DNA of 64,000 bases from Gordonibacter sp. 28C (GCF_003339845.1 NZ_PPTR01000003.1:310001-374000), one strand, 5' to 3'. Counted from the first letter of the stretch, positions 15,667-31,187 are shown. The notes: generated from the letters alone by a model not told the origin. Numbers and translations are program-made.

Positions 15667-16563
15667 ATGAAGGACATCATTAACGTCGCCGTGGTCACGT
15701 TCGAGCCGCGCTGGGGCGACAAGGAACGGAACCTGAACCGCATCGTGGGCTATATCGAGTGCGCCGCCGCGCGCGGGGCGAACCTGGTGGTGCTGCCCGA
15801 GACGGCGCTCACCGGCTACGACGTGGTCGCCGTCCCGGAAGGCGAGGAATGCATGCACCACCGCCTGGCCGAGCCCATCCCGGGGCCGTCGACGGAGGCC
15901 GTGGCCGAGGTCACGCACCGCTTGGGCGTGTACGCCGTGTTCGGCCTGGCCGAGCGCGCCGAAGACGGCACCGTCTACAACGCCGCCGTGGCCTGCGGGC
16001 CCGACGGCGTGCTGGGCCGCTACCGCAAGATGCACCTGCCGGGGGCCGAGTCCACCTGGGCCGGCCGCGGCGACGAGCCGTTCATGTTCGGCACGCCGTG
16101 GGGACCCGTGGGCGTGAGCATCTGCTACGACACGTTCGTGTTCTCCGAGATCATGCGCTACTACCGCGCGAGCGGGTGCCGCCTGATAGCGAACCCGTTC
16201 GCCGTGAACACGGGTGTCACGGCCCGCAACATAAAAGACTCGCTCGAGTACCTGGCCGCGAACAACGACGTGTACATAGCCTCGGCGAACTGCACCGGCT
16301 GCGCCGTGTCCGACGACTTCGTGGGCGGCAGCAGCGTGATAGGCCCCGGCAAGAACGTTCCCGCCATCTGCTACTACACCGGCGGCCCCTGCGGAGCGCC
16401 CGGCTCCGACGAGCAGGAGCTGCACCTGGGCACCGTCGATTTGTCCTACGTGGACAAGCCGTTTTTGGCCAAGCAATGGGCCGACGCGGAGCCGGACTTC
16501 CGCCCCGGTGTCTACGCCCGCTGGTACGGCGAGCTGGCCGCCCAAGAACGGTTCAAACGGTAA
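15667..16563 (+). CDS. Nitrilase-superfamily C-N hydrolase
   Basis: A 298-residue carbon-nitrogen hydrolase with the Glu-Lys-Cys triad in place: E45 in VVLPETALTG, K121 in GRYRKMHLP, and C153 in VSICYDTF. These cytoplasmic enzymes cleave amides, carbamoyl groups or nitriles. The length and motif spacing are those of the aliphatic amidase/carbamoylase branches rather than true nitrilases; the substrate is unknown. AAGGAGG lies just upstream of the ATG. It probably forms a transport-and-cleavage unit with the MFS gene under the LysR regulator. Confidence 0.9.
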   Translation: MKDIINVAVVTFEPRWGDKERNLNRIVGYIECAAARGANLVVLPETALTGYDVVAVPEGEECMHHRLAEPIPGPSTEAVAEVTHRLGVYAVFGLAERAEDGTVYNAAVACGPDGVLGRYRKMHLPGAESTWAGRGDEPFMFGTPWGPVGVSICYDTFVFSEIMRYYRASGCRLIANPFAVNTGVTARNIKDSLEYLAANNDVYIASANCTGCAVSDDFVGGSSVIGPGKNVPAICYYTGGPCGAPGSDEQELHLGTVDLSYVDKPFLAKQWADAEPDFRPGVYARWYGELAAQERFKR

Positions 16564-16748: not shown

Positions 16749-16878
16749 AGAGCCCCGTGCCTCGCGCCGTGGGTTACGGAAGAAGGCGGCGTTTCGGCGC
16801 ACACATGCACCAAAGCCCAACGAATGCACCGAATAGGCGCTCTTAGGATCGATCCGAGCAGCACGGGGAGCGCTTTTC

Positions 16879-16947
16879 AACGATCCGATAACACCGAGGT
16901 AACGATCGGATCTCTGCGTGACACGTAAAAGACAATTCGTAAATACT
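16879..16947 (+). promoter_or_regulatory. Shared adhesin promoter element, copy A
   Basis: Three AAC boxes start at 16879, 16890 and 16901, exactly 11 bp apart. GTGACA (16918-16923) follows, and AATACT (16942-16947) after an 18-base spacer. The region also contains GATCCGA...TCGGATC as an inverted repeat. The same layout recurs before the next three genes. Direct repeats at one helical turn before a -35 box are typical of OmpR/PhoB-family activator sites. Confidence 0.6.
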
Positions 16948-17013: not shown

Positions 17014-18693
17014 ATGCACGATATTCGTGCCCTACCCGCCTCGACCCTGCCACACCGCGCACTGGCAATTCTGCTCGCAGTGTTGCTGGGGGCTTCAATG
17101 CTCCCCTTGACTGCGTTCGCCGACCTGGAAGAAAGGGGAACCCAGCGCCCCGATGCACCGGGCAACGTTCAAGCGTTTCTCGAAAGCGACGGCGTCCACG
17201 TAACATGGGATGCCGTGGCCGATGTCGATGGATACTCCGTATTCCGCAGCGTCGCTAAAAACGGTCCCTTTGAAATAATCTTCGACTTGAACGCTCAAAA
17301 CCTTTCTTGTTTAGACCAAGATGCCGCCCCTGGCGGAACGTACTACTATATCGTTATTTCCATGGGGCCCGATATGAAGAGCCTCCCGTCGAACGTCGCC
17401 AGCGTTACCTTGCCCCCGTACGGGCAGTTCCATGTGACTTACGACGGTGCCGGCGCCGACGCGGGCACGGTGCCCGTGGACTACAACACATACCTCGCAG
17501 GGGACCTGGTCACCGTGCCTACCGAGACGCCCACGCGCATCGGATCCGAGTACACGTTCGGCGGTTGGAAGGACTTCGCGACCGGCGAGGTGTACCAGCC
17601 TGGAGACCCGTTCACAATGCCCGAAGGCGGCATCACCCTCACTGCGCTGTGGGCCGAGCACGCCGTCCCCGGCAACAACAGGCTCGTGCTGGACGACGAG
17701 ACCCTGACTGCGGGCGACACGGTGCGGTTCACGGCCACGGGCGACCGCCAGGACGTCGCAGGCACCGCCGGCGGGGAGACGCGCTACATCCCCATCTCCT
17801 GGACCATCTTGCCGCTGCTCGACGGTGTCGAACTTCCCTTCGATCCTCCCACCTCCCCCTATCGGGGCGGTGCGATAATGGGAGAGCCCGGCCGCTACTA
17901 CGTGATGGTGACCTACGACATGCAGTACTTCAACATCTGTTGCAACGAGTGGGAATCCATGGGCCCCGACAATCACGATATTATCGCGGTTCCCTTCTCG
18001 GTGAGGGCTCAGGTCCACAGCCTCACCTACCTGCGCAACTACACGCCCGAGGACGCGTTTTTCTCGCCAGCGGGCAACTTCGCAGCAGGAACCGAGGTTC
18101 CTTTGAGCGACATCGGGTCGGTGGGCATCCTACAGGACGACTACACCCGCGACGGCTATAGGTTCATGGGCTGGAGCGCCGATCGCTTCGCCAGCCAGGG
18201 TGTCGTAGGCGACTACCTCATGCCGAGCGAAGAGACCGCATTGTACGCCATATGGGCACGCGAGCACGCGGTCACCTACGACGGCAACGGCGCGGACGGC
18301 GGAACGGTTCCTACGGACCCGCTCGCCTACGTCAAGGACGACGCGGTGACCGTGGCGTCCGACGAGCCCACGAGGGCCGGCTACAAGTTCGCCGGCTGGA
18401 CGGCCGACCACGACGGCAATGTCTACCGCGCCGGCGACACGTTCGCCATGCCCGAGGGCGACGCGCGCCTGGTAGCCCGCTGGACCCCACAGGCGGCCCC
18501 GGGCCCGGACAACAACCAAGCCGCGAAACCGGGCACGCCCGCGAACACGCCGAAGGGCACGCAGGCCAGCGCATCGAAGATGGGCTTCCTGCCCAAGACC
18601 GGCGACGAGGCCGCGCCGTTCGCGCTCTTGGGCATCGTGGCCGCTCTGGGAGCCTCGGGCGTGCACGTGCTGCGCAAGAAGAAGCAGGAGTAG
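17014..18693 (+). CDS. LPKTG cell-wall surface protein 1 (array)
   Basis: 559 residues; first of five tandem paralogues. A signal peptide (MHDIRALPASTLPHRALAIL..., cut near AFA-D at about 34) leads into a fibronectin-III-like domain (about 45-130). An InlB/Flg_new repeat of the VTYDG...GG kind follows, then one GDRQ module (about 222-333; GDRQ and GETRYIPISWTI visible, with an ICCNEW dicysteine). Two more repeats and a Pro/Asn-rich linker come next, then LPKTGDE (526-532), a membrane segment and KKKQE, the sortase anchor. It should be covalently linked to peptidoglycan; an adhesive role is inferred from the repeats. I chose the ATG at 17014, 7 bases after GGAGGA. Confidence 0.88.
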   Translation: MHDIRALPASTLPHRALAILLAVLLGASMLPLTAFADLEERGTQRPDAPGNVQAFLESDGVHVTWDAVADVDGYSVFRSVAKNGPFEIIFDLNAQNLSCLDQDAAPGGTYYYIVISMGPDMKSLPSNVASVTLPPYGQFHVTYDGAGADAGTVPVDYNTYLAGDLVTVPTETPTRIGSEYTFGGWKDFATGEVYQPGDPFTMPEGGITLTALWAEHAVPGNNRLVLDDETLTAGDTVRFTATGDRQDVAGTAGGETRYIPISWTILPLLDGVELPFDPPTSPYRGGAIMGEPGRYYVMVTYDMQYFNICCNEWESMGPDNHDIIAVPFSVRAQVHSLTYLRNYTPEDAFFSPAGNFAAGTEVPLSDIGSVGILQDDYTRDGYRFMGWSADRFASQGVVGDYLMPSEETALYAIWAREHAVTYDGNGADGGTVPTDPLAYVKDDAVTVASDEPTRAGYKFAGWTADHDGNVYRAGDTFAMPEGDARLVARWTPQAAPGPDNNQAAKPGTPANTPKGTQASASKMGFLPKTGDEAAPFALLGIVAALGASGVHVLRKKKQE

Positions 18694-18741
18694 CGCCGAT
18701 CCCCGCAAAAACCTGCGCCCTTCCCTAGCAACTCCGCAGAA

Positions 18742-18769
18742 AAGCAGCCCCGGCGAACCGGGGCTGCTT
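18742..18769 (+). terminator. Terminator of surface protein 1
   Basis: 12-bp perfect stem AAGCAGCCCCGG / CCGGGGCTGCTT with a CGAA tetraloop, 48 bases after the stop. Confidence 0.75.
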
Positions 18770-18878
18770 GCGTTCGGGTGCCCGAGCCGGCAACGATTTT
18801 GGTCCTTGCCGGCGTCCGCGCCCGAGGAGCGCCCTTTTAAGCTTTCGGGGGCGAATCGACCCAAAAAGGTCGCTTTTC

Positions 18879-18947
18879 AACAACACGATGACACCGGGGT
18901 AACGGTACGGAAGTTCTGTGACACGGGGAAAACGTTTCGTCAATACT
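18879..18947 (+). promoter_or_regulatory. Shared adhesin promoter element, copy B
   Basis: Boxes at 18879 (AAC), 18890 (GAC) and 18901 (AAC), 11 bp apart. GTGACA (18918-18923), an 18-base spacer and AATACT (18942-18947) follow. Every distance equals that of copy A. Confidence 0.6.
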
Positions 18948-18951
18948 TGAG

Positions 18952-18982
18952 ACACGGTTTGGGTATCAAATCCAAGCCGTGT
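18952..18982 (+). promoter_or_regulatory. 5' leader hairpin of surface protein 2
   Basis: ACACGGTTTGG (18952-18962) pairs with CCAAGCCGTGT (18972-18982) over 11 bp with one G-U, followed by CTTTTG. It starts at about the expected transcription start, so it would be a 5'-terminal stem-loop. A related, imperfect hairpin lies in the leader of gene 3 (21188-21220). Confidence 0.4.
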
Positions 18983-19018
18983 CTTTTGTCGTCTACCGAC
19001 AAGTGAAGGAGAAACCCC

Positions 19019-20914
19019 ATGCACACTATCCGCACCGCACCCACCTCGCCCCCGGCACGCCGCGCGCTCGCGTTTCTGCTCGCGCTGCTGCTGGGGCTGT
19101 CGATGATCCCTCTGGCCGCGTTCGCCGGGCCGTCCGCAGAGCCGTATGCGATCCCCGAACCGCCGAGCAACATCCAGGCGAGGGACACAAATTACGGCAT
19201 CGAGATATCTTGGGACCCTGCCGCGCAAGCCAATTCTTACATTCTGTACAAAGGTGATTCACTAACGGGGCCTTGGAGAGAAATCGCCCATCCGGAACGT
19301 TCCCCGTACACGAATGCAGACGCTCAACCAGGCAAGACATATTTCTACCGCCTCTCCACGTTTTGGAATGAAGAAGCAAGCGACATGTCCGCCGTCGCCA
19401 GCGCCATGATACCCGACCCGAGCCCATCCGCACAAACCTACCCCCTGATCTACACCTGCGATTACCCCGACGGCAGCGACTCTCTCACATCGATTGCCGG
19501 ACAATTCGCCTCGGGCACCCCCGTCACCCTGAGCGACATCACGTCGGTGGACCCCGATGGCGAAGACTGGTCCAACCCCAACTTCAAGTTCATGGGATGG
19601 CTGAACAGCAGCGACGGCACGGTATACAACCCGGGCACTACCCTTCCCATGCAAGAGCCGTTCCTGCTCCTGTCTGCTGCATGGGATAGCCCCTTCGGAA
19701 TCACCTACGACGGCAACGGCGCGGACGGCGGCATCGTGCCCGTCGATAACGGCATGTACTTCTCGCGCGACCTGGTGCATATCCCCCTCGACACGCCAAC
19801 GAAAACCGGATACACGTTCGTCGGCTGGAAGAACCGCGCGGACGGCGCGGTACACCAGCCGAATGAGGACTTTCCCATAACGCGGGGCGGCGCCTACCTC
19901 GTCGCCCTCTGGGCCGAGCGTGCCGACGCGGGCAAGAACACGCTCGTGCTGGACGACGACGACCTAACCGCAGGCGACGCCGTGTGGTTCACGGCCACGG
20001 GCGACCGCCAGAGCGAGACGGGCTCCACCGGCGGGGAGGCGCGCTTCGTCCCCGTGTCATGGACCATCGAGTCGAACTTCCACGACCTGCCCTTCTCCCC
20101 CGACGCTCCCTATCGGGGCAGCGCGATAATCGACGAGCCCGGATCCTACATCGTGACGGCAACTTACGTCGAGCAGTTCTTCAACATCTGCTGCGACAGC
20201 TGGGAGCCCACGGGCAACACCGCGACGCTCTCGAAACCCTTCACGGTGAAGGCGCGCACCTACGAGCTGTCCTACTTCCGCAACTACACGCCCGAGGACG
20301 CGTTCGTCGCACCCGGCGGCGCCTTCGCCGCAGGCGATACCGTGGCTTTGAGCAGCATCGACTCGGTGGGCGTCACGCAGGACGACTACACCCGCGAGGG
20401 CTACCGCTTCATGGGCTGGAACACCGACCGCACCGCCGACTGGAGCGTCACCGGGAACTTCGCCATGCCGAACGGCAAGACGGACCTCTACGCCATCTGG
20501 GCGCCCACGTGCGCCGTGGTCTACGACGGCAACGGCCACGACGGCGGCACCGTGCCCGTGAACGAGTTCGCCTACGTCAAGGGCGACGCGGTGACCGTGG
20601 CGTCCGACGAGCCCACGAGGGCCGGCTACAAGTTCGCCGGCTGGACGGCCGACCACGACGGCAAGGTCTACCGCGCCGGCGAGAAGTTCGCCATGCCCGA
20701 GGGCGGCGCGCGCCTGGTGGCCAAATGGACCCCGCAGGCGGCCCCGGGCCCGAACAACAACCAGGCCGCGAAGCCCAGCGTACCGAAGGCCCTTTCCAAG
20801 GCGGGCTTCCTGCCCAAGACCGGCGACGAGGCCGTGCCGTTCGTGGCCCTGGGCGCGCTCGCGGCCGCCGGCGCGCTGGGCGTGCGCTCTCTGCGCAGGA
20901 AGAAGCAGGAATAG
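19019..20914 (+). CDS. LPKTG cell-wall surface protein 2 (array)
   Basis: 631 residues. The signal peptide MHTIRTAPTSPPARRALAFL... is nearly identical to those of genes 3 and 4. Then come a fibronectin-III-like domain (about 45-132), a 'YRNYxPxD'-type repeat, a VTYDGNG-type repeat, one GDRQ module (about 303-415; GDRQSETG, RFVPVSWTI, NICCDSW), two more repeats of both types, an Asn/Pro linker, and the anchor LPKTGDE at 598. GAAGGAGAAA precedes the ATG. It is a cell-wall protein by its anchor. The last repeat is almost identical to that in genes 1 and 3, suggesting gene conversion. Confidence 0.9.
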   Translation: MHTIRTAPTSPPARRALAFLLALLLGLSMIPLAAFAGPSAEPYAIPEPPSNIQARDTNYGIEISWDPAAQANSYILYKGDSLTGPWREIAHPERSPYTNADAQPGKTYFYRLSTFWNEEASDMSAVASAMIPDPSPSAQTYPLIYTCDYPDGSDSLTSIAGQFASGTPVTLSDITSVDPDGEDWSNPNFKFMGWLNSSDGTVYNPGTTLPMQEPFLLLSAAWDSPFGITYDGNGADGGIVPVDNGMYFSRDLVHIPLDTPTKTGYTFVGWKNRADGAVHQPNEDFPITRGGAYLVALWAERADAGKNTLVLDDDDLTAGDAVWFTATGDRQSETGSTGGEARFVPVSWTIESNFHDLPFSPDAPYRGSAIIDEPGSYIVTATYVEQFFNICCDSWEPTGNTATLSKPFTVKARTYELSYFRNYTPEDAFVAPGGAFAAGDTVALSSIDSVGVTQDDYTREGYRFMGWNTDRTADWSVTGNFAMPNGKTDLYAIWAPTCAVVYDGNGHDGGTVPVNEFAYVKGDAVTVASDEPTRAGYKFAGWTADHDGKVYRAGEKFAMPEGGARLVAKWTPQAAPGPNNNQAAKPSVPKALSKAGFLPKTGDEAVPFVALGALAAAGALGVRSLRRKKQE

Positions 20915-20950
20915 CGTTCTGTTGAGGCACGTTGCAGACAACTCCTAAGC

Positions 20951-20989
20951 ACGAGGAAGCCCCGGTTCGCCGAGGGCTTCCTCGTTTTT
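20951..20989 (+). terminator. Terminator of surface protein 2
   Basis: ACGAGGAAGCCC / GGGCTTCCTCGT stem followed by TTTTTG, 37 bases after the stop. Confidence 0.88.
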
Positions 20990-21113
20990 GCGAGCAACGC
21001 GCCAGAATACCCATGGCCCTTTGAGAAAACGGCACCCGCACGAGTGCTTGAGGGCATGCCCATACGCAGCATCGCTGATTGAATCGTTTCTGAGAACGCG
21101 AGCCTCTTTTTTC

Positions 21114-21183
21114 AACGATCCGACAACGTCGAGGTAACGATCCGACGATCTCAGTGACACAGCGAAAACAATTAATAAATACT
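21114..21183 (+). promoter_or_regulatory. Shared adhesin promoter element, copy C
   Basis: AAC boxes at 21114, 21125 and 21136 (11-bp steps), all continuing as AACG. GTGACA (21154-21159), an 18-base spacer and AATACT (21178-21183) follow. The first and third boxes share AACGATCCGAC, a clear direct repeat. Confidence 0.62.
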
Positions 21184-21249
21184 TAAGAAACGGTTTGGAC
21201 AGAAAAACCACGCCGTGTTTTTGTCGTTACCTGACGAGAAGGAGTTCCC

Positions 21250-23688
21250 ATGCACACTATCCGCACCTTGCCCACCTCGCCCCCGGCGCGGCGCGCGCTG
21301 GCATTCCTGCTCGCGCTGCTGCTGGGGCTCTCGATGATCCCTTTGGCCGCGTTCGCCGACCAGGGCACAGGCCCGGACGCGACCGTCAACCCTCCCGGCA
21401 ACGTTCACGCAGAAGTTTCGATGCAAAATGCCATCTTGGTTGACTGGGATCCGGTCGACGGCGCTGACTCTTATTGGGTGTACTGCCGCGATTCAGGCTC
21501 GAACGACTTCTCCCTCGTAGGCGTTCGAAGCGTTCCGAACTACGTGAGCGACGGCCTCGCGCCGGGCACGACCTACTACTATTACGTCGTCGCCTACAAA
21601 GGCGTCGAGCCGAGCGCCCCTTCGGGCATCGTCTCCGCAACGACGAACGGAGAGGTCCACGCGGTCACGTACTATCGCAACTACCCCGAAGGCGATACGG
21701 AATTCGTATCTGGCAGAAACTTTCTCGCCAGCGCCAGCGTCCCTCTGAGCGACATCACGTCGGTTGGCACCGCCGGCGCGAACTGGTCTCGCCCCGATCT
21801 CAAGTTCATGGGTTGGATGGATGGAGACGGCCAAGTGATCTCAGCCGGCACCGTGGTCCTCATGCCCGATCGGCCTCTAGCCCTCTCCGCCATTTGGGAA
21901 ACCCAGCGCAAGGCAATCTACATCAGCGACGGCGCCGAAGAGAACACCGTACCCGTGGACAACCGGGGCTACTTTCCGGGCGACCTCGTGACCGTGTCTT
22001 CCATGGTGCCCGTATGGCCGGGACACACGTTCGGCGGATGGCACAACTTGTTCACCGGCCAAGTGCTCCAGCCGGGCGACACGTTCCCCATGCCGGAAAA
22101 CGGCGCCATTCTCCTTGCCCAGTGGCCCGAGCGGGCCGACGCGGCCAACAACACGCTCGTGCTGGACAACGACGATTTGTACTTGGGCGAACCGATTTCG
22201 TTCACCGCCACGGGCGACCGCCAAGACGCGACGGGCACTTCCGACGGCGACACGCGCTACATCCCCGTCAAGTGGACCGTCGACCCGTTTTCCGACGTCC
22301 CCTTCATCGACACGTACCCCTTCACGGCCGGCGCTGTAACGCTGAACCTCGGCGCCCAGTCGGTGACGGTCACCTACGAAAAGCAGGTGTACGACGTCTT
22401 CGTCGGCGATTGGGTTTCCACACCGGAAACCACAACCCTTTCGAAGCCTTTCACCGTAAAGGAACGGGTGAGTCCGCTCACGTACCACCGCAACTACGAC
22501 TCCGGCGACACCGCCTCCGCAAGCGGCGGAGACTTCGCGCCAAATGTCTCCATCCCCTTGAGCGACATCACGTCGGTGGGAACCGACGGCGACAACTGGG
22601 CTCGCAGCGGCTACCGGTTCATGGGCTGGAGCGACGACCCCAGGAGCCCATGGGGCTTCACGGTACAGTACCCCATGCCCGATGGGCCCTTGAATCTATA
22701 CGCCACCTGGGGTGCCCTGCACACGGTCACGTACGACGGCGACGGTGCCGACGGCGGCATCGTGCCCGTGGACAACAACGAGTACGTTACGGGCGAAGAG
22801 GTGCCTGTGCCCAGCGACATGCCTACGAAGACCGGGTACACGTTCGGCGGCTGGCTGAATACGCTGAACGGCCAGGTGTACCAGCCCGAACGTATCTTCT
22901 TCATGCCGGAAGAGGGAGCCAACCTCAAGGCCCTGTGGGCCGAGCACGCCGACCAGGGGCAGAACACGCTCGTGATAGATGACGACGACCTCATCGTGGG
23001 CGACACGATGACATTCACGGCCACGGGCCACCGCCAAGACGTTGAGGGCTCTGCCGGCGGGGAGACGCGCTTCATCCCCGTCTCGTGGACCGTCGAATCG
23101 GTCCTGCCCTACCTGCCGTTCGCAAACCAGTATCCCTTCACGGGCAGCTACGTGACGAGCACCCCCGGCACCTACACCTTGACGGCGGTGTACGTCGAGG
23201 AGTTCTACAACATCTGCTGCGACACGTGGGACCCCACGGGCAATTGCGTGTCGCTCTCGGTCCCCTTCACCGTGCGGGCTCCGGGCGCCTACGCCGTGGT
23301 CTACGACGGCAACGGCCACGACGGCGGCACCGTGCCCACCGACGCGCTCGCCTACGCTAAGGACGATGCCGTGACGGTGGCCTCGGGCGAGCCCGTGAAG
23401 TCCGGGCACGTCTTCGCCGGCTGGAAGGCCGACCACGACGGCAAGGTCTACCGCGCCGGCGACGCGTTCGCCATGCCCGAGGGCGGCGCGCGCCTGGTGG
23501 CCCAGTGGACCCCGCAGGCGGCCCCGGGCCCGAACGGAGGCGGCTCGAAGGGCACGCCGGCCGCCCTGTCCAAGGCGGGCTTCCTGCCCAAGACCGGCGA
23601 CGAGGCCGTGCCGTTCGTGGCCTTGGGCGCGCTCGCGGCCACCGGCGCGCTGGGCGTGCGGTCCCTGCGCAGGAAAAAGCAGGGGTAG
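21250..23688 (+). CDS. LPKTG cell-wall surface protein 3 (array)
   Basis: 812 residues. The signal peptide ends at AFAD (about 37). A fibronectin-III-like domain (about 45-135) is followed by five InlB/Flg_new-type repeats and two GDRQ modules (about 297-408 and 568-678). The second module carries the NICCDTW dicysteine; in the first that segment reads VYDVFVGDW. The C-terminus has a short Pro/Gly linker, LPKTGDE (779), a hydrophobic segment and RRKKQG. AGAAGGAG precedes the ATG. Compared with gene 2 it has one extra repeat-GDRQ unit, so length variation in the family comes from whole-module duplication. Confidence 0.9.
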   Translation: MHTIRTLPTSPPARRALAFLLALLLGLSMIPLAAFADQGTGPDATVNPPGNVHAEVSMQNAILVDWDPVDGADSYWVYCRDSGSNDFSLVGVRSVPNYVSDGLAPGTTYYYYVVAYKGVEPSAPSGIVSATTNGEVHAVTYYRNYPEGDTEFVSGRNFLASASVPLSDITSVGTAGANWSRPDLKFMGWMDGDGQVISAGTVVLMPDRPLALSAIWETQRKAIYISDGAEENTVPVDNRGYFPGDLVTVSSMVPVWPGHTFGGWHNLFTGQVLQPGDTFPMPENGAILLAQWPERADAANNTLVLDNDDLYLGEPISFTATGDRQDATGTSDGDTRYIPVKWTVDPFSDVPFIDTYPFTAGAVTLNLGAQSVTVTYEKQVYDVFVGDWVSTPETTTLSKPFTVKERVSPLTYHRNYDSGDTASASGGDFAPNVSIPLSDITSVGTDGDNWARSGYRFMGWSDDPRSPWGFTVQYPMPDGPLNLYATWGALHTVTYDGDGADGGIVPVDNNEYVTGEEVPVPSDMPTKTGYTFGGWLNTLNGQVYQPERIFFMPEEGANLKALWAEHADQGQNTLVIDDDDLIVGDTMTFTATGHRQDVEGSAGGETRFIPVSWTVESVLPYLPFANQYPFTGSYVTSTPGTYTLTAVYVEEFYNICCDTWDPTGNCVSLSVPFTVRAPGAYAVVYDGNGHDGGTVPTDALAYAKDDAVTVASGEPVKSGHVFAGWKADHDGKVYRAGDAFAMPEGGARLVAQWTPQAAPGPNGGGSKGTPAALSKAGFLPKTGDEAVPFVALGALAATGALGVRSLRRKKQG

Positions 23689-23737
23689 CGCCATCTCCTG
23701 CAAGGGTCGCGCCTAGACGGCAGCGGCAATCTTTACA

Positions 23738-23775
23738 CAAGGGAAGGGCCCCGGCATGCCGGGGCCCTTCCCTTG
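23738..23775 (+). terminator. Terminator of surface protein 3
   Basis: A 17-bp stem CAAGGGAAGGGCCCCGG and its complement around CATG, about 50 bases after the stop. The U tract is poor. Confidence 0.7.
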
Positions 23776-23823
23776 CCCGGTCCTGCGCGGTGTCGGCAGA
23801 AGTCCCTCGACGACCCGTTTTTC

Positions 23824-23869
23824 AACGCCACGGCAACGACAAGGAAACGATCTGGCAATCGTCGTGACA
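23824..23869 (+). promoter_or_regulatory. Shared adhesin promoter element, copy D
   Basis: AAC boxes at 23824, 23835 and 23846 (11-bp steps), each continuing as AACG, then GTGACA at 23864-23869. The -10 position is degenerate here (TAGAAC), so this copy may be weaker or more dependent on the activator. Confidence 0.5.
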
Positions 23870-23966
23870 TAGCGGCAACGGCTCAACTAGAACGGCTACG
23901 CGATCTGGATAATGGGGTGGTGACACTCGCATTACCAATCCGTACCCGATGGATGAAGGAGTTCCC

Positions 23967-26528
23967 ATGCCGCACCTTCGCACCTTGCCCACTTCGCCCC
24001 CGGCACGCCGCGCGCTGGCTTTCCTGCTCGCGCTGCTGCTGGGGCTGTCCATGCTTCCCCTGGCCGCGTTCGCCGAGTCGTCCGCTCGGGCGACCCTCGA
24101 CCCTCCCGCAGGACTCGGCGCCAACGCCACATCGTCGAGCTCCATCGAGATAAGCTGGGCCGCCACCTCCGGCGCCGAAGGCTACCGGGTGCTTCGCAGC
24201 ACCTCGGAGTCGGGGAGCTACGAGCAGATAGCAAACACGACATCGACGAGCTACACCAACACCGGGCTCAGTCCGGACACGACCTACTACTATATGGTCG
24301 CCGCCTACAACGCCAGCGAGACGAGCTCCTTCGGCGGTCCCGTCAGCGCCAGAACGGAATCGCTCCCCGCGCAGCAGGCCGACCCGGGCCTGAACACGCT
24401 CGTGATGGACAACTACGAGCCGTACGCGCACGAGGGATTCGGGTTCACGGCCACGGGCGACCGCCAGGACGCCGCAGGTACCGTGAACGGCGAGACGCGC
24501 TACGTCCCCACGTCGTGGACCATCAGGTCGGATCTTTCAGGTTTCTTCTCCGGCCCGGCCCCCTACAAAGACAGCGTGATCATCGACCAGCCCGGCAACT
24601 ACACTTTGACGGCCACTTACACCTTGCAGCGATACATCCCGAGCGTTGGTTGGCTGCCCATGGACAGCACCGCAACGCTCTCGGTCGACTTCACCGTCAA
24701 GGCGCGCACCTTCGAGCTCACCTACCTGCGCAACTACACGCCCGATGATGCGTTCTTCTCGCCCGGCGGCAGCTTCGAAGAAGACGCCCTCGTATCCGCC
24801 AGCGACATCACGTCGGTAGGCGTTCCAGGCGACAACTGGGCTCGCGTCGACGGCTACGTCTTCGGCGGTTGGCTGGACAAGGACAGCGGCAACTTGTACT
24901 ACCCCGGCGAACAGTTCCGCATGGTGAAGGGGGGCATGAGCCTCACCGCCCTTTGGGGGGCACAGGCGGATGCGGGCAAAAACACGCTCGAACTGGACAA
25001 CAACGAGCCGTACGCGCACGAGGTGTTCACCTTCACGGCCACGGGCGACCGACAGGACGAGCCCGGCACCGTCGACGGCGAGACGCGCTACGTCCCCACG
25101 TCGTGGACCATCAGGTCGGGCCTTTCCGGCGACTTTCCCAGCACGTCCCCCCGCGAGGAAAGCGCGATCATCGACCAACCCGGCGACTACACTTTGACGG
25201 CAACCTACGCCCTCGAGCACTACTCGCACAGCATGGGCTGGCAGCGCACGGGCGACACCGCGACTCTCGCAACCGATTTCACCGTGAAGGAGCGCACCTA
25301 CACGCTCACCTATCTGCGCAACCACTCGCCCGAGGACGCGTTCTTCTCGCCCGGCGGGGAATACCCGGCGGGTACTTCCATCCCTTTGAGCGACGTGTCC
25401 TCGGTGGGCACCACGCACGATGATTACACCCGCGCCGGCTACAAGCTCATAGGTTGGAACACCGACCGATCTGCCAACTGGGGGCAGGTGTACAGCTACA
25501 CCATGCCGAACGAAAACACGTCGCTGTACGCCATCTGGGCGCCCGCCTACGCGGTAACCTACGACGGCAACGGGGCGGACCCCGGCACGGTGCCCGTCGA
25601 CAACAACACGTACCTGGCGGGAGATCCGGTGAACATCCCCGTCGAAACGCCCACGAGGGCCGGCACCGGGTACACGTTCGGCGGATGGCAGAACCCTGCG
25701 GGCGGCAAGGTGTACCTGCCCGGCGACCGCTTCGCCATGCCCGAAAACGGCATCACCCTCGTCGCCCTGTGGGCCGAGCAGGCCGACAAGGGCAAGAACA
25801 CGCTCGTGGTCGAGGACGACGACCTGACCGTGGGCGACACGCTGCGGTTCACGGCCACGGGCGACAGGCAGGAGGCCACCGGCGACGTGAACGGGGAAAC
25901 GCGCTACGATCCCGTCTCGTGGACCATCGTCCCGCTCCTCTCGAACCACATGCCCTTCGCGAACCAGCATCCCTTCACCGACAGCATGGTAATGAACATG
26001 CCGGGCAACTACGTTCTGACGGCGACCTTCGTCATGCGGGTGTACGACGCGAACATAAAGGCATGGCACCCCGTGGGCGACCTCGAGATGATATCGGTTC
26101 CCTTCACGGTGCGGGCGCCGGGCGCCTACGCGGTGACCTACGACGGCAACGGCGCGGACGGCGGCACCGTGCCCGTGGACGCGCTCGCCTACGCCAAGGG
26201 GGACACCGTGACCGTGGCCTCCGACGAACCCACGCGGACCGGCTACACGTTCGACGGCTGGACGGCCGACCACGACGGCAAGGCATACCGCGCCGGCGAC
26301 ACGTTCTCCATGCCGGAGGGCGGCACGCGCCTCGTTGCCCGCTGGACCCCTCAGGCGGGACCGGCGCCGGACAACAACCAAGCCGCGAAGCCGGGCGTTC
26401 CGACCGCCTTGTCCAAGGCGGGCTTCCTGCCCAAGACCGGCGACGAGGCCGTGCCGTTCGTCCTTCTGGGCGTCGTGGCCGCCTTGGGGGCAGCGGGCGT
26501 GCACGCTCTGCGTAAAAAGCAAGGGTAA
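23967..26528 (+). CDS. LPKTG cell-wall surface protein 4 (array)
   Basis: 853 residues, the longest of the five. A signal peptide (MPHLRTLPTSPPARRALAFL...) precedes a fibronectin-III-like domain (about 45-130). Three GDRQ modules follow (about 140-247, 336-441 and 608-717), interleaved with four InlB/Flg_new-type repeats. A Pro/Asn linker, LPKTGDE (821), a membrane segment and RKKQG close it. The first two GDRQ modules share the variant NNEPYAHE/NYEPYAHE lead-in and lack the dicysteine, so they look like a local tandem duplication. I chose the ATG at 23967 behind GAAGGAG. Confidence 0.9.
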   Translation: MPHLRTLPTSPPARRALAFLLALLLGLSMLPLAAFAESSARATLDPPAGLGANATSSSSIEISWAATSGAEGYRVLRSTSESGSYEQIANTTSTSYTNTGLSPDTTYYYMVAAYNASETSSFGGPVSARTESLPAQQADPGLNTLVMDNYEPYAHEGFGFTATGDRQDAAGTVNGETRYVPTSWTIRSDLSGFFSGPAPYKDSVIIDQPGNYTLTATYTLQRYIPSVGWLPMDSTATLSVDFTVKARTFELTYLRNYTPDDAFFSPGGSFEEDALVSASDITSVGVPGDNWARVDGYVFGGWLDKDSGNLYYPGEQFRMVKGGMSLTALWGAQADAGKNTLELDNNEPYAHEVFTFTATGDRQDEPGTVDGETRYVPTSWTIRSGLSGDFPSTSPREESAIIDQPGDYTLTATYALEHYSHSMGWQRTGDTATLATDFTVKERTYTLTYLRNHSPEDAFFSPGGEYPAGTSIPLSDVSSVGTTHDDYTRAGYKLIGWNTDRSANWGQVYSYTMPNENTSLYAIWAPAYAVTYDGNGADPGTVPVDNNTYLAGDPVNIPVETPTRAGTGYTFGGWQNPAGGKVYLPGDRFAMPENGITLVALWAEQADKGKNTLVVEDDDLTVGDTLRFTATGDRQEATGDVNGETRYDPVSWTIVPLLSNHMPFANQHPFTDSMVMNMPGNYVLTATFVMRVYDANIKAWHPVGDLEMISVPFTVRAPGAYAVTYDGNGADGGTVPVDALAYAKGDTVTVASDEPTRTGYTFDGWTADHDGKAYRAGDTFSMPEGGTRLVARWTPQAGPAPDNNQAAKPGVPTALSKAGFLPKTGDEAVPFVLLGVVAALGAAGVHALRKKQG

Positions 26529-26570
26529 AGCCCTCTCGCAGAGACGCGCCGTGCGCATCCGCAATCACGA

Positions 26571-26604
26571 GGAAGGCTCCGATTCGTCGGAGCCTTCTCC
26601 TTTT
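26571..26604 (+). terminator. Terminator of surface protein 4
   Basis: 11-bp stem GAAGGCTCCGA / TCGGAGCCTTC with a TTCG tetraloop, then TCCTTTT. Confidence 0.82.
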
Positions 26605-26797
26605 CCGGCGCAGGCTCCTAGCGCCCGCGCGCTTTAAAGCGCACCGACGTCGCGAAGCTCGTCCACGAACGGGCAACGCTGCGGCAACGGTCCCATAAAC
26701 CGCCATCACGTGACGGAAACGGCTTGCGACCAGGGAAGGCGTATTCATGATAATGAATTTGCACCCCATTCGCAGCCGTCCCACGAAGGAGACCCTC

Positions 26798-28207
26798 ATG
26801 CACAACATTCGCACCCTGCCCGCCCCCTCGCCGGCGCGCGCCGCATTGGCGCTCGCCCTCGCGCTGTTCCTGGCGCTTTCGATGCTCGTTCCCGCCGCAT
26901 ATGCCGAACCGTCCGCAGGAGCGGATGCGACCGTCGAGAAGCCCGTGAACCTGAGGGCGGACGCGCTGTGGTCCGACGCCATCGTAACAAGCTGGAGCCC
27001 CGTCGCCGACGCCCAAGCCTACGAGGTGTACCGCAGCACCAGCGAGCCGGGCCCTTACGAGCTCATAGGCACCTCGGCGTCGGCAGAGTTCATGGACGTC
27101 GGCCTCAATTCGAACACGACCTACTACTATCGCGTCGCAGCCGTGGACGGCAGCGGCAACCGCAGCGACCTGTCCGACATAGCCAGTGCGACGACGCCCG
27201 ACAAGCTCTACCAGCTGTCTTACTACCGCAATTACTACCCCGGCGACACGACTATCGCATCAGGAGGAATGCTCGACGGGGGCCACTACCTTCGCTTGAG
27301 CGCCATCACGTCGGTGGGCCCCGAAGGTGGAGCCGGCGTCGACTGGTCCCGACCCGGCTACCAGTTCGTAGGCTGGATGGACATGGCAACCGGCGCCGTC
27401 TACCAAGCCGGCGAGACGTACGCCATGCCATACGGAGACGCGTCGCTGCGCGCCCTCTGGGCGGCCCAGTACACGGTGACCTACGACGGCAACGGCGCGG
27501 ACGGCGGCACGGTGCCCGTGGACACCAACGGCTACGCAGCGGGAGACCCGGTTACGGTGGCGCCCGACGAGCCCACCAGGACCGGCTACGCGTTCGCCGG
27601 ATGGCTGAACGAGAACGACGGCGGCGTGTACCGGGCCGGCGAGACGTTCACCATGCCCGACGGAGGCGCCCGCCTGGTCGCTCGTTGGGCCCCGCAGGCC
27701 GACGCGCACCAGAACGCGCTCGAGCTCGACAACGACAACCTGCTCGCCGGTGACGACGTGTCGTTCCTGGCCACAGGCCATCGCCAGGACGAGCCAGGGA
27801 GCATTGACGGCGAAACGCGTTACGTGCCCGTGTCCTGGGAGGTCACTTCGTCCATCCACGGCGACTTCCCCGCCGCGTCCCCCCATCGCTCCAGCGCGAC
27901 CATGAGCGATCCCGGCAACTATGCCGTCACGGCATCCTACGCCCAGGAGCGCTACGTCGCCGGCACGGGCTGGCAGCGCACGGGAGCCTTCGAAACGCTC
28001 TCGCAGAGCTTCACGGTGAAGGCACGCCCGGTCGATCCCGTGAACCCCGTCAACCCGACCGATCCGACGGACAAGCGGCCGCCGCTCGTGCAGGTGTCCA
28101 AGGGCGGTCTGCCGAAGACCGGCGACACCGCCCCGTTCGTCGCCCTGGGAGCCCTGGCCGCCCTCGGCGCCGGCGGCGTGCTGGCCTCCCGCAGGAAGTC
28201 CAGCTAG
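26798..28207 (+). CDS. LPKTG cell-wall surface protein 5 (array)
   Basis: 469 residues, the shortest and most divergent paralogue. A signal peptide ends at AYA (about 33). A fibronectin-III-like domain (about 46-134) is followed by one 'YRNYYPGD' repeat, one VTYDGNG repeat and one GDRQ module (about 301-412, without the dicysteine). A Pro-rich PVNPTDPTD linker leads to LPKTGD (438), a membrane segment and RRKSS. It lacks the C-terminal extra repeat seen in genes 1-4. Its upstream region has AAC boxes (26675, 26686, 26698) and GTGACG (26710), but the spacing to the -35 is 6 bases longer than in copy D, so control may differ. An ATTCAT/ATGAAT dyad at 26743-26758 is unique to it. Confidence 0.88.
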   Translation: MHNIRTLPAPSPARAALALALALFLALSMLVPAAYAEPSAGADATVEKPVNLRADALWSDAIVTSWSPVADAQAYEVYRSTSEPGPYELIGTSASAEFMDVGLNSNTTYYYRVAAVDGSGNRSDLSDIASATTPDKLYQLSYYRNYYPGDTTIASGGMLDGGHYLRLSAITSVGPEGGAGVDWSRPGYQFVGWMDMATGAVYQAGETYAMPYGDASLRALWAAQYTVTYDGNGADGGTVPVDTNGYAAGDPVTVAPDEPTRTGYAFAGWLNENDGGVYRAGETFTMPDGGARLVARWAPQADAHQNALELDNDNLLAGDDVSFLATGHRQDEPGSIDGETRYVPVSWEVTSSIHGDFPAASPHRSSATMSDPGNYAVTASYAQERYVAGTGWQRTGAFETLSQSFTVKARPVDPVNPVNPTDPTDKRPPLVQVSKGGLPKTGDTAPFVALGALAALGAGGVLASRRKSS

Positions 28208-28354: not shown

Positions 28355-31075
28355 TTACTTCTTGTCGGGGCGTTTCTTGCGCTTCGCCTTGGGCGGCTTG
28401 GGCGCCGCCTTGGAAGCGCTCGCGCCGTGCGGCTTGTCGCCGGAAGCCGCATACCCGGCAGCAGCGTTCGGGGCCTGAGCCGTCGCGGTACCCTGGGCGC
28501 TTCCCGCATTCGCGGCCGGCATGGCATTACCCGCCTTCGCGGCGGCCGGAACCATGGCGTTCGGGTTCGCGAACTCGAAACGGCCCACCTGCGAACCGTA
28601 CTTCTTCTGCAGCTTCGCGTAGCGCGGCTCGCGGGTCTTCCACATGGAGTACAGCGGCGTGGCCACCGCCACCGACGAGTAGGAGCCGCAGATCAGGCCG
28701 ATGGCCATGGCGAACGCGAAGTCCTTCAGCGTCTCGCCGCCGAAGAACAGCATGGCTAGCACCGGGATGAGCGAGGTGAGCGTGGTGTTGATGGTGCGCA
28801 CGAGCACCTGGTTGATGGAGTGGTTCGCCATCGTCATGAACGTGCACTTGATGTCGTCGCCCTGCATGTTGTCGTTGATGCGGTGGAACACGACCACCGT
28901 GTCGTAGAGCGAGTAGCCCAAAATGGTGAGCAGCGCGGCGATGGTGTTGGGGTTCACCTCGCGTCCCACCAGGGCGTAGATGCCCATGACCAGCACCAGG
29001 TCGTGCAACAGCGCCACGATGGCCGTGACGCCCATCTTGTAGTCGAACCGGATGGCGATGTAGATGATGATGAGCACGATGGACACCAGGAACGCGATGA
29101 GCGACGACTGGATGACGCTCGCGCCCCAGTCGGGCCCGATGGTGGTGACCTCGAAGCTCTCGGTGGACAGGCCCAAATCGTCGGCCACCTGGTTCGCGCG
29201 CGTCGTGGCGTCCTCGGCGCTCGTGGTGGTGGTGCGCACGAGGAAGCCCTCCTGGCCGTCGGCGTTCGTCGTCTGGATGACGGCGTCGGGCTCGCCGGCC
29301 TGGTCGAAGGCGGTGCGCAGCTGCTCGGTGGTCACGTCGCCCGTGCCGTGGAACGAGATGGACGTGCCGCCCACGAACTCGATGCCGAAGTTCAGGCCCT
29401 TGAAGCCCACGACGGCGAACGACGCGCACACGAGCACCGCCGCCACGGTGAGGAAGATGCGCCGATGGCCCAGGAAGTTGATGTCGTGCTTGATGAAGCG
29501 TCCGCGCGGCTTGCGCGCCGCCTCCGCGGCGGCCTCGCCGGCCTCGCCCGAACGCTTCTCGGCCAAGCGCTCGCTGGCGGACGCGTCCATGGCCTCGCCG
29601 GCCTCCGCCGCGGCCGTGCTCGTGCCCTCGGCCAGAGCCAACGCCTCGTAGTCCTTGGCGGCGGCTTCGGCGTCCTTCACACCCCAGAAGCCGGGGTGCT
29701 TCGCGATGACCTTCGGCGCCAGCAGGCGGATGAGCGGCGCCTTGAACAGCAGCATCATGACGATGTCGCACACGATGCCCAGCGCGAGCGTCAGGCCGAA
29801 GCCCTTGACGCTGGCCGTGGCCAGGAAGAACAGCGACAGCGCCGACACCAGCGTCACCAAGTCGGCGTCGATGGACGTGACGATGGCGTGCCGCACGCCC
29901 GTGATGGACGCGGCGCGAACGCTGCGGCCCATGCGTATCTCCTCGCGGAAGCGCTCCATGGTGAGGATGGACGAGTCGGCCGCCATGCCGATGGTGAGCA
30001 CGACGCCCGCGATGCCCGCGAGCGACAAGCTGAACAGCCCGAACGCGGACAGCGTGGCCAGAATGCCCAGATACAGCACGGCGAAGATGCCCATGGCCGC
30101 CGCCGTGATGATGCCCAGGCCCCGGTAGAAGAACAGCAGGTACAGCATGACCACGGCCAAGCCGATGAGCGCAACGAGCACGCCGGACGCCAGCGCGTCC
30201 TGGCCGAGCGTCGGGCCCACCACCTGGCTCTGCGCGTACTCGAAGCTCACGGGAAGCGAGCCGCTCTCCAGCACGGTCTGCAGCGATTTGGCCTCGTCGA
30301 GCGAGTAGTTGCCCGTGATCTGCACGTCGCCGTTCGGGATCTCGGACTGCACGGCGGGCGCCGATTGCACCTCGCCGTCCAGGATGATGACGATCTTGCC
30401 CTTCGTGGAAACCAGGTCCTTCGTGGCCTCGGCGAACGCGGCGGTGCCCTCGCCGTCAAGCTGGATGTTCACGCCGTAGTCAGTCGACGTCTGGCTCGCT
30501 TGGCCGACGGACACGTTCGTGATGTTGCTGCCGGTGACGAGCGGGGTGTAGGTGCCGCTCTCCACCTTCAAGTGCTCGGTGGTGCCCGAGGGCAGCGAGT
30601 TGCCCAGCTCGTCGGTGACGGTGGCCTCGTTGCCGAACTGGCCGTTCTCGATCTTCGTCTTCACGTCGTTGTCGGTGAACGAGTCGAGGCGCGCGAACTC
30701 CAGCTTGCCGGTCTTGCCGATGGTGTTGAGCGCGTCCTCGGTGTTGGTGAGGCCGGGGATCTGCACGAGTATCTGGTCGGTGCCCTGCACCTGAACCACG
30801 GCCTCCGAGGCGCCCAGCGCGTTCACGCGGCTCTCGATGATGGCGCGGCTCTTCTCCATGTCGTCGGCGGAGACGGCCTGGCCGTCGGTGCCCTTCGCCG
30901 TGAGGACCACCGACAGGCCGCCTTGGATGTCCAGACCCTGGTTGATCTTCTCCTGCGGAGGCGCGAACATGAATATCGACCCCACCACCAGCAGGGTCGT
31001 GACAATAAGGAGCCAGACGTTGCGCCGGTCGACCGAGCGGCCGGGCTTCTTCTTCGGTTTCTGGGCTGTCGCCAT
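28355..31075 (-). CDS. secDF: SecD-SecF fusion protein translocase subunit
   Basis: A 906-residue fusion of SecD and SecF, which use the proton gradient to help SecYEG export proteins. The SecD half has GLDIQGG, a large extracellular domain, and the membrane motif GMAADSSILTMERFREE, where most homologues have GxxVDANVLIFERIREE. The SecF half has GIEFVGGTSISF and YSLYDTVVVFHRINDN. The two are joined by a charged Ala/Glu-rich linker, and the C-terminus is a Lys/Ala-rich tail. I chose the ATG at 31075 behind GAGGAG. The leader contains the GTCAAGTATAATTT promoter motif at 31186-31199. It is the export machinery that the surface proteins upstream would rely on. Confidence 0.93.
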   Translation of the reverse strand: MATAQKPKKKPGRSVDRRNVWLLIVTTLLVVGSIFMFAPPQEKINQGLDIQGGLSVVLTAKGTDGQAVSADDMEKSRAIIESRVNALGASEAVVQVQGTDQILVQIPGLTNTEDALNTIGKTGKLEFARLDSFTDNDVKTKIENGQFGNEATVTDELGNSLPSGTTEHLKVESGTYTPLVTGSNITNVSVGQASQTSTDYGVNIQLDGEGTAAFAEATKDLVSTKGKIVIILDGEVQSAPAVQSEIPNGDVQITGNYSLDEAKSLQTVLESGSLPVSFEYAQSQVVGPTLGQDALASGVLVALIGLAVVMLYLLFFYRGLGIITAAAMGIFAVLYLGILATLSAFGLFSLSLAGIAGVVLTIGMAADSSILTMERFREEIRMGRSVRAASITGVRHAIVTSIDADLVTLVSALSLFFLATASVKGFGLTLALGIVCDIVMMLLFKAPLIRLLAPKVIAKHPGFWGVKDAEAAAKDYEALALAEGTSTAAAEAGEAMDASASERLAEKRSGEAGEAAAEAARKPRGRFIKHDINFLGHRRIFLTVAAVLVCASFAVVGFKGLNFGIEFVGGTSISFHGTGDVTTEQLRTAFDQAGEPDAVIQTTNADGQEGFLVRTTTTSAEDATTRANQVADDLGLSTESFEVTTIGPDWGASVIQSSLIAFLVSIVLIIIYIAIRFDYKMGVTAIVALLHDLVLVMGIYALVGREVNPNTIAALLTILGYSLYDTVVVFHRINDNMQGDDIKCTFMTMANHSINQVLVRTINTTLTSLIPVLAMLFFGGETLKDFAFAMAIGLICGSYSSVAVATPLYSMWKTREPRYAKLQKKYGSQVGRFEFANPNAMVPAAAKAGNAMPAANAGSAQGTATAQAPNAAAGYAASGDKPHGASASKAAPKPPKAKRKKRPDKK

Positions 31076-31187
31076 GGAGGTTCTCCTCGTTCGTTTCATC
31101 GTCTTGCGCATGCGCGGAGAGCCCCGCGACACGTCAACTGTCCTATTGTGCCACAAATCCCGACCAGCGAACACTACTTGTCATTAA

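Follow-up and report, generated by a model that had tools for sequence, protein, structure and literature searches.

Tandem families of LPXTG adhesins such as Sdr/MSCRAMM and Alp/Rib are modular, keep conserved ends, change in repeat number and diversify by recombination. In the fibrillar-adhesin-like proteins of Firmicutes and Actinobacteria, the adhesive domains are mostly N-terminal and Flg_new is handled as a stalk domain (PMC9210967). Our window, a stretch of 64,000 nucleotides from Gordonibacter sp. 28C (GCF_003339845.1, NZ_PPTR01000003.1:310001-374000; coordinates are counted from its first letter), contains five adjacent intact open reading frames (ORFs), g1 to g5, on the + strand, with a nitrilase-like gene on one side and a fused secDF gene on the other. 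Each of the five products has a signal peptide and carries an LPKTG sorting signal, as a first-pass annotation of this DNA had recognized. A modular array of this type is known in kind, and its comparison between species gave direct evidence for turnover of genes and modules and for exchange between neighboring genes. We consider it probable that this is a genus-level locus with a tandem, wall-anchored, fibrillar-adhesin-like family that undergoes turnover and exchange between species and carries a strongly divergent tip. Gordonibacter is important for polyphenol metabolism (urolithins), and we found nothing specific in the literature on its LPXTG proteins or surface adhesins.

The proteins were cut into modules and the module order was verified by hidden Markov model (HMM) segmentation, start codons having been picked from visible ribosome-binding sites. 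Besides the signal peptide (SP) and the anchor, the module alphabet consists of F, a fibronectin-III-like tip; B, an InlB B-repeat; C, a divergent B-like repeat of approximately 82-86 amino acids (aa); and G, the GDRQ module of 109-116 aa. The first gene, g1 (17014-18693, 559 aa), reads SP-F-B-G-C-B-LPKTG (F 17143-17418, B 17419-17664, G 17665-18012, C 18013-18258, B 18259-18495, anchor 18583-18690), and g2 (19019-20914, 631 aa) reads SP-F-C-B-G-C-B-LPKTG (F 19151-19435, C 19436-19687, B 19688-19921, G 19922-20257, C 20258-20503, B 20504-20740, anchor 20804-20911). The third, g3 (21250-23688, 812 aa), is SP-F-C-B-G-C-B-G-B-LPKTG, with F 21385-21654, C 21655-21900, B 21901-22134 and G 22135-22467 in its N-terminal half and C 22468-22713, B 22714-22947, G 22948-23283, B 23284-23520 and the anchor (23578-23685) in its C-terminal half. 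The longest, g4 (23967-26528, 853 aa), is SP-F-G-C-G-C-B-G-B-LPKTG, its N-terminal half holding F 24096-24377, G 24378-24707, C 24708-24965 and G 24966-25295 and its C-terminal half C 25296-25541, B 25542-25781, G 25782-26120, B 26121-26357 and the anchor (26421-26525). Finally, g5 (26798-28207, 469 aa) has the simplest order, SP-F-C-B-G-LPKTG (F 26933-27205, C 27206-27463, B 27464-27697, G 27698-28024, anchor 28103-28204).

In a Pfam search, the Listeria-Bacteroides repeat model matched all five proteins with E values of 2e-14 to 6e-28, which excludes a chance likeness of the repeats. PF09479/PF18998 were found in 5/5 proteins, each of which has three to seven B, C and G modules. Domain fn3 was over its cut-off at the N-terminus of g3, g4 and g5. 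Because the F HMMs were made from the family's own sequences, the F call in g1 and g2 rests, without Pfam, on alignment and on the structure predicted for g2; the model of the whole g2 protein is a chain of beta domains, the tip of which resembles the bacterial Fn3-like protein 3mpc (TMt 0.82). The C-terminal surface anchor was above cut-off with TIGR01167 in all proteins and with PF00746 in four of the five, and the general layout is that of LPXTG substrates (N-terminal signal peptide, LPXTG, hydrophobic stretch, basic tail). Two earlier statements on the modules agreed with the segmentation: g3 amounts to g2 plus one repeat-GDRQ unit (an extra G and an extra B), and two of the three G modules of g4 are alike, namely G1 and G2 (68% aa and 78% DNA identity). 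The ends of the proteins, described at first as near-identical, are better called similar, with 62-94% identity among anchors (94% for g2/g3 alone) and 42-84% among signal-peptide segments (95% for g2/g3 across the first 37 residues). The same wording was too strong for the last B repeats of g1 to g3, which share 76-81% aa and 82-86% DNA identity.

We then compared the nitrilase-secDF locus in five Gordonibacter species, with one genome per species. Both borders, a carbon-nitrogen hydrolase (nitrilase-like) gene (15667-16563, + strand) and the fused SecD-SecF gene (28355-31174, - strand), were kept in the five species, and the number of array genes at the syntenic locus was 5, 4, 1, 0, and 0. 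Gordonibacter sp. Marseille-P2775 has four genes, m2 to m5, G. pamelaeae has a single g5-like gene (p5, partly masked), and in Gordonibacter G001 the site is empty, the gap between secDF and the nitrilase gene being 88 bp. These differing contents indicate that the nitrilase-secDF interval is a variable surface-protein site. The fifth species (G004) carries an unrelated 17-kb insert at this site (L025:1387-18632), with genes for a histidine kinase, a LytTR response regulator and an AlbA_2 protein. The insert also encodes an Fn3-rich LAPTG protein of 3347 aa, which a 453-aa ORF precedes in another frame.

Module content differs as well between the two larger arrays. In Marseille-P2775, m2 reads F-C-B-G-C-B, m3 F-(C-B-G)x3-B, m4 F-G-C-G-C-B-G-C-B and m5 F-C-B-G. 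Gene g1 is without a positional counterpart, m2 is the counterpart of g2, and m3, m4 and m5 are the orthologues of g3, g4 and g5. Compared with g3, m3 has one additional C-B-G unit, adjoining F; compared with g4, m4 has one additional C ahead of the last B. The G-to-B joint of g4 (VRAPGAYAV), which lacks this C, is the same in g3 and m3, whereas m4 continues into C. The simplest account would be that the g4 tail joint was taken from g3, although the reverse direction is also possible.

The DNA flanking the two arrays is 93.5-95.7% identical between the two species, with a synonymous divergence (dS) of 0.14-0.20 in flanking genes, whereas the orthologues g3/m3, g4/m4 and g5/m5 are 77-82% identical with a dS of 0.42-0.49. 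Positive selection as the only cause of array divergence was ruled out, since synonymous divergence is also elevated. The first-pass annotation had named uniform divergence beforehand as the outcome that would speak against shuffling; divergence between the species was uneven. Along g3/m3, identity goes from 73% to 94% and back to 75%. The conserved tract covers modules G2-B3 (22948-23517, + strand; 94% identical to m3) and has its edges at module borders, the fitted change points being 22936 and 23518 and the module edges 22947 and 23517. Its dS is 0.14 (0.08-0.21), similar to that of the flanks, vs. 0.60 (0.47-0.76) in the preceding modules. This jump points to recombination with differently aged copies, as protein-level selection alone is insufficient to produce it. 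A fourfold synonymous jump at module edges within one gene pair is also difficult to reconcile with an old and stable set of paralogues that have distinct functions, diverge under purifying and directional selection and now recombine little. Gene and module counts that vary between species, and anchors and last B repeats with a tree unlike that of adjacent modules, argue against such a family too. Other data agree with it: paralogue identity is low, g5/m5 are collinear with 82% DNA identity throughout, and in the module trees most internal modules group with those of the same gene in the other species. The cross-species pairs were g3_G1/m3_G2, g3_G2/m3_G3, g4_G1/m4_G1, g4_G3/m4_G3 and g5_G1/m5_G1 (bootstrap 94-100), and some B and C modules pair likewise (94-100 support). 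Most module duplications must therefore be older than the species split. Taken together, we find it unlikely that the array is only an old set of stable paralogues. A recent duplication of G1/G2 in g4 was ruled out, as m4_G1 groups with g4_G1 (88% DNA identity vs. 78% for G1/G2). Hence, shuffling, as first proposed, is supported between species (copy number, whole modules, inter-gene conversion); recent shuffling is not supported for g4 G1/G2 nor for most module duplications, which predate the split.

Exchange between neighboring genes was most visible at their 3' ends. The anchors of g2 and g3 form one group (support 97/98), and the orthologous groupings g3+m3 and g2+m2 were rejected (p-AU 0.006 each). 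Unlike the anchor, the B module right before it still pairs g3 with m3. The 3' end of g2 (20789-20916, + strand) is 94% identical to g3 23563-23690. Judging from these trees, the g2/g3 anchor exchange post-dates the species split. In addition, a tract of 81 bp is identical in the last B modules of g1 and g2 (18339-18419 and 20584-20664, + strand), a run of 26 polymorphic sites (0 of 2000 permutations, 21 pairs tested). It is probably a gene-conversion tract. Since the window comes from a 32-contig draft genome, misjoined repeats could in principle mimic such patterns. However, no exact repeat in the array is longer than 81 bp, and the locus recurs, with its orthologous genes in matching order, in an independent genome assembled as a single contig; an assembly artefact is, in our opinion, extremely improbable.

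The tip behaves differently from the rest of the proteins. Comparison between the sister species showed that F diverges far more than the stalk. Orthologous F modules of g2, g3 and g4 have 50-58% DNA identity, close to the 42-58% seen for paralogous F modules within one genome, whereas F of g5/m5, the fourth comparable pair, has 84%. Both the signal peptide upstream of F and most of the stalk downstream are more alike between orthologues than F itself. Alignments point to the N-terminal F as the fastest-changing part of the proteins, a feature unremarked in the first-pass annotation. Synonymous sites of F are close to saturation in two of the three divergent pairs (g2, g3, g4), and these three tips would have been either replaced or subject to very fast evolution. 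Tips that appear replaced would suit an exchange hotspot, where other lineages donate entire surface-protein segments via the conserved flanks and recombination within the array is secondary. An array-orthologue dS that exceeds the flank dS two- to threefold, g5/m5 included, would suit it as well, and so would a site that is empty in G001 and filled with unrelated DNA in G004. However, no donor was found, relatives of G being present in 5/397 genomes of the order and in none of the viral contigs searched; the G+C content of the array (65.0%) matches that of the flanks (64.8 and 67.5%), and the g2-g3 and g1-g2 exchanges are internal to the array. Import as the leading process is possible, but we find it doubtful.

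Each gene has its own upstream region. The element of g1 (16874-16947, + strand) has three AAC(G/A) boxes, 11 bp apart, followed by a promoter-like site, GTGACA-18-AATACT (16918-16947). The same element precedes g2 (18874-18947, + strand; promoter-like site 18918-18947), where the AAC boxes are less evenly spaced, and g3 (21109-21183, + strand; promoter-like site 21154-21183). The region upstream of g4 (23818-23966, + strand) has the 11-bp AACG boxes and is missing the promoter-like hexamers. The GTGACA-18-AATACT sites of g1, g2 and g3 were the sole three sigma-70-like sites found; the motif is also present in m2 and m3 and missing from g4, g5, m4 and m5. Boxes at 11-bp steps are found in most of the nine genes, with three in g1, g3, g4, m2, m3 and m4, two in g5, and a less regular spacing in g2 and m5. 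The long form of the element has three copies in the genome, every one at the array. The boxes may represent an activator site on one helix face, making the array a candidate activator-controlled regulon. A single operon was ruled out, given a promoter-type upstream region for each gene and gaps of 269-335 bp. Phase or antigenic variation proper, in which a single gene is expressed beside silent donors or a promoter can invert, likewise involves families with repeated modules and conserved ends. In the window, none of the five genes is disrupted, and every one has a start, a ribosome-binding site and an upstream region to itself. Neither inverted repeats nor notable tandem repeats were detected, and a scan of the flanking genes from LysR to tgt showed no recombinase; we regard such variation as very unlikely.

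The G module was modeled with AlphaFold2 (17 modules as input) as a confident immunoglobulin (Ig)-like beta sandwich (pLDDT 94.5). No Pfam or NCBIfam family covers it, no PDB sequence matched, and Foldseek with the model returned generic Ig-like sandwiches only, none at E ≤ 0.001. The five genomes of the order with relatives belong to Gordonibacter (three) and to two other genera. Distant copies were found in these two other genera, at a second Marseille-P2775 site and in metagenome-assembled genomes of a Lachnospiraceae and a Clostridia bacterium, in surface-type proteins (L052:1-2265, L053:9053-10441, L033, L034 and L049, from the Lachnospiraceae, the Clostridia and other Eggerthellaceae). 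They are located near the protein C-terminus and, in 4/5 cases, immediately precede an LPXTG-like or LAPTG-like anchor, suggesting that G is an undescribed, unnamed Ig-like stalk domain of wall-anchored proteins.

A sortase was to be looked for elsewhere in the genome, according to the first-pass annotation, and the PF04203 search returned one that was convincing, class B by TIGR03064 (147 bits, slightly below the cut-off of 153.75). TIGR01076 had no match in the genome, nor was there a housekeeping class A sortase to fit LPKTG. A second PF04203 match was dismissed as a low-complexity frame, not sortase-like. The class B gene (L028:6811-8553, G000:C27) belongs to an exopolysaccharide-type cluster, where its neighbors encode a protein anchored through SPQTG and a transferase of the LCP family. 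The specificities do not match, with SPQTG in the sortase neighbor and LPKTG in the array.

If the array is indeed a tandem adhesin-like family, each protein would be secreted and presumably attached to the wall by a sortase via LPKTG, forming a rod in which G (Ig-like), B and C make up the stalk and one fibronectin-III-like domain sits at the exposed end. The comparison showed that, between sister species, the locus changes by the gain or loss of genes and of entire modules and by exchange of stretches among neighboring genes. Homologous recombination among the repeated modules is the likely engine, the tip may bind ligands or be exposed to the immune system, and the conserved ends would maintain export, anchoring and expression. 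Several points weigh against this proposal. A known adhesive Pfam domain is lacking in g1 to g5, which have an N-terminal fn3 only; for that reason, we say that the proteins work like fibrillar-adhesin-like proteins and do not file them as members. Domain fn3 can also be a stalk domain, and the step from tip to ligand binder rests on position and divergence. The comparison is between species only, with the one genome for each, and since full arrays are present in two species only, most differences can be read as gain or as loss. High dS could also mean alleles imported from other species instead of exchange within the array. Anchoring through LPKTG is not assured, the only sortase being of class B, whose characterized relatives favor other motifs, and expression of the array is a prediction from the upstream sequence.

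More speculatively, the locus might be a tip-swapping display system, in which recombination at module edges exchanges the single Fn3-like tip on conserved stalks, within species and hosts, with G as a new Ig-like stalk family of wall-anchored proteins in Eggerthellaceae and Clostridia. We put this forward tentatively; if true, tip swapping would yield strain-specific ligand or immune profiles in a gut commensal. With its conserved borders, clear orthologues and one domain changing on a steadier stalk, the locus is a natural experiment on surface change in a commensal. With it, one can ask whether adhesins of commensals vary their tips for the sake of ligand choice or of immune escape, and it points to an undescribed Ig-like domain.

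Like the Sdr/MSCRAMM and Alp/Rib families, the Gordonibacter array is modular, with conserved ends and a changing repeat number, but its domains differ, its host is a gut Eggerthellaceae, and its variability is focused on one small Fn3-like tip. Listeria internalins (InlA/InlH, with TIGR02543 repeats) similarly have B-repeats ahead of an LPXTG anchor, where weak NCBIfam internalin matches were obtained. Unlike in internalins, no leucine-rich-repeat model matched in g1 to g5, and scores with the class 1 internalin models were far under the cut-offs (at best 44.5 vs. 1050 and 33 vs. 1600). As for anchoring, the only sortase found in the Gordonibacter genome is a class B enzyme like SrtB of C. 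difficile, which cleaves (S/P)PXTG (PMC4155245), whereas the array motif is LPKTG. The fibrillar-adhesin-like proteins (PMC8286594, PMC9210967) share with the array a signal peptide, a distal N-terminal domain, a repeated stalk including Flg_new (PF09479), a C-terminal sorting signal and fast evolution. The array differs from them in having no catalogued adhesive domain and an unnamed G module, and in having five such proteins in tandem, with module turnover across species at one locus.

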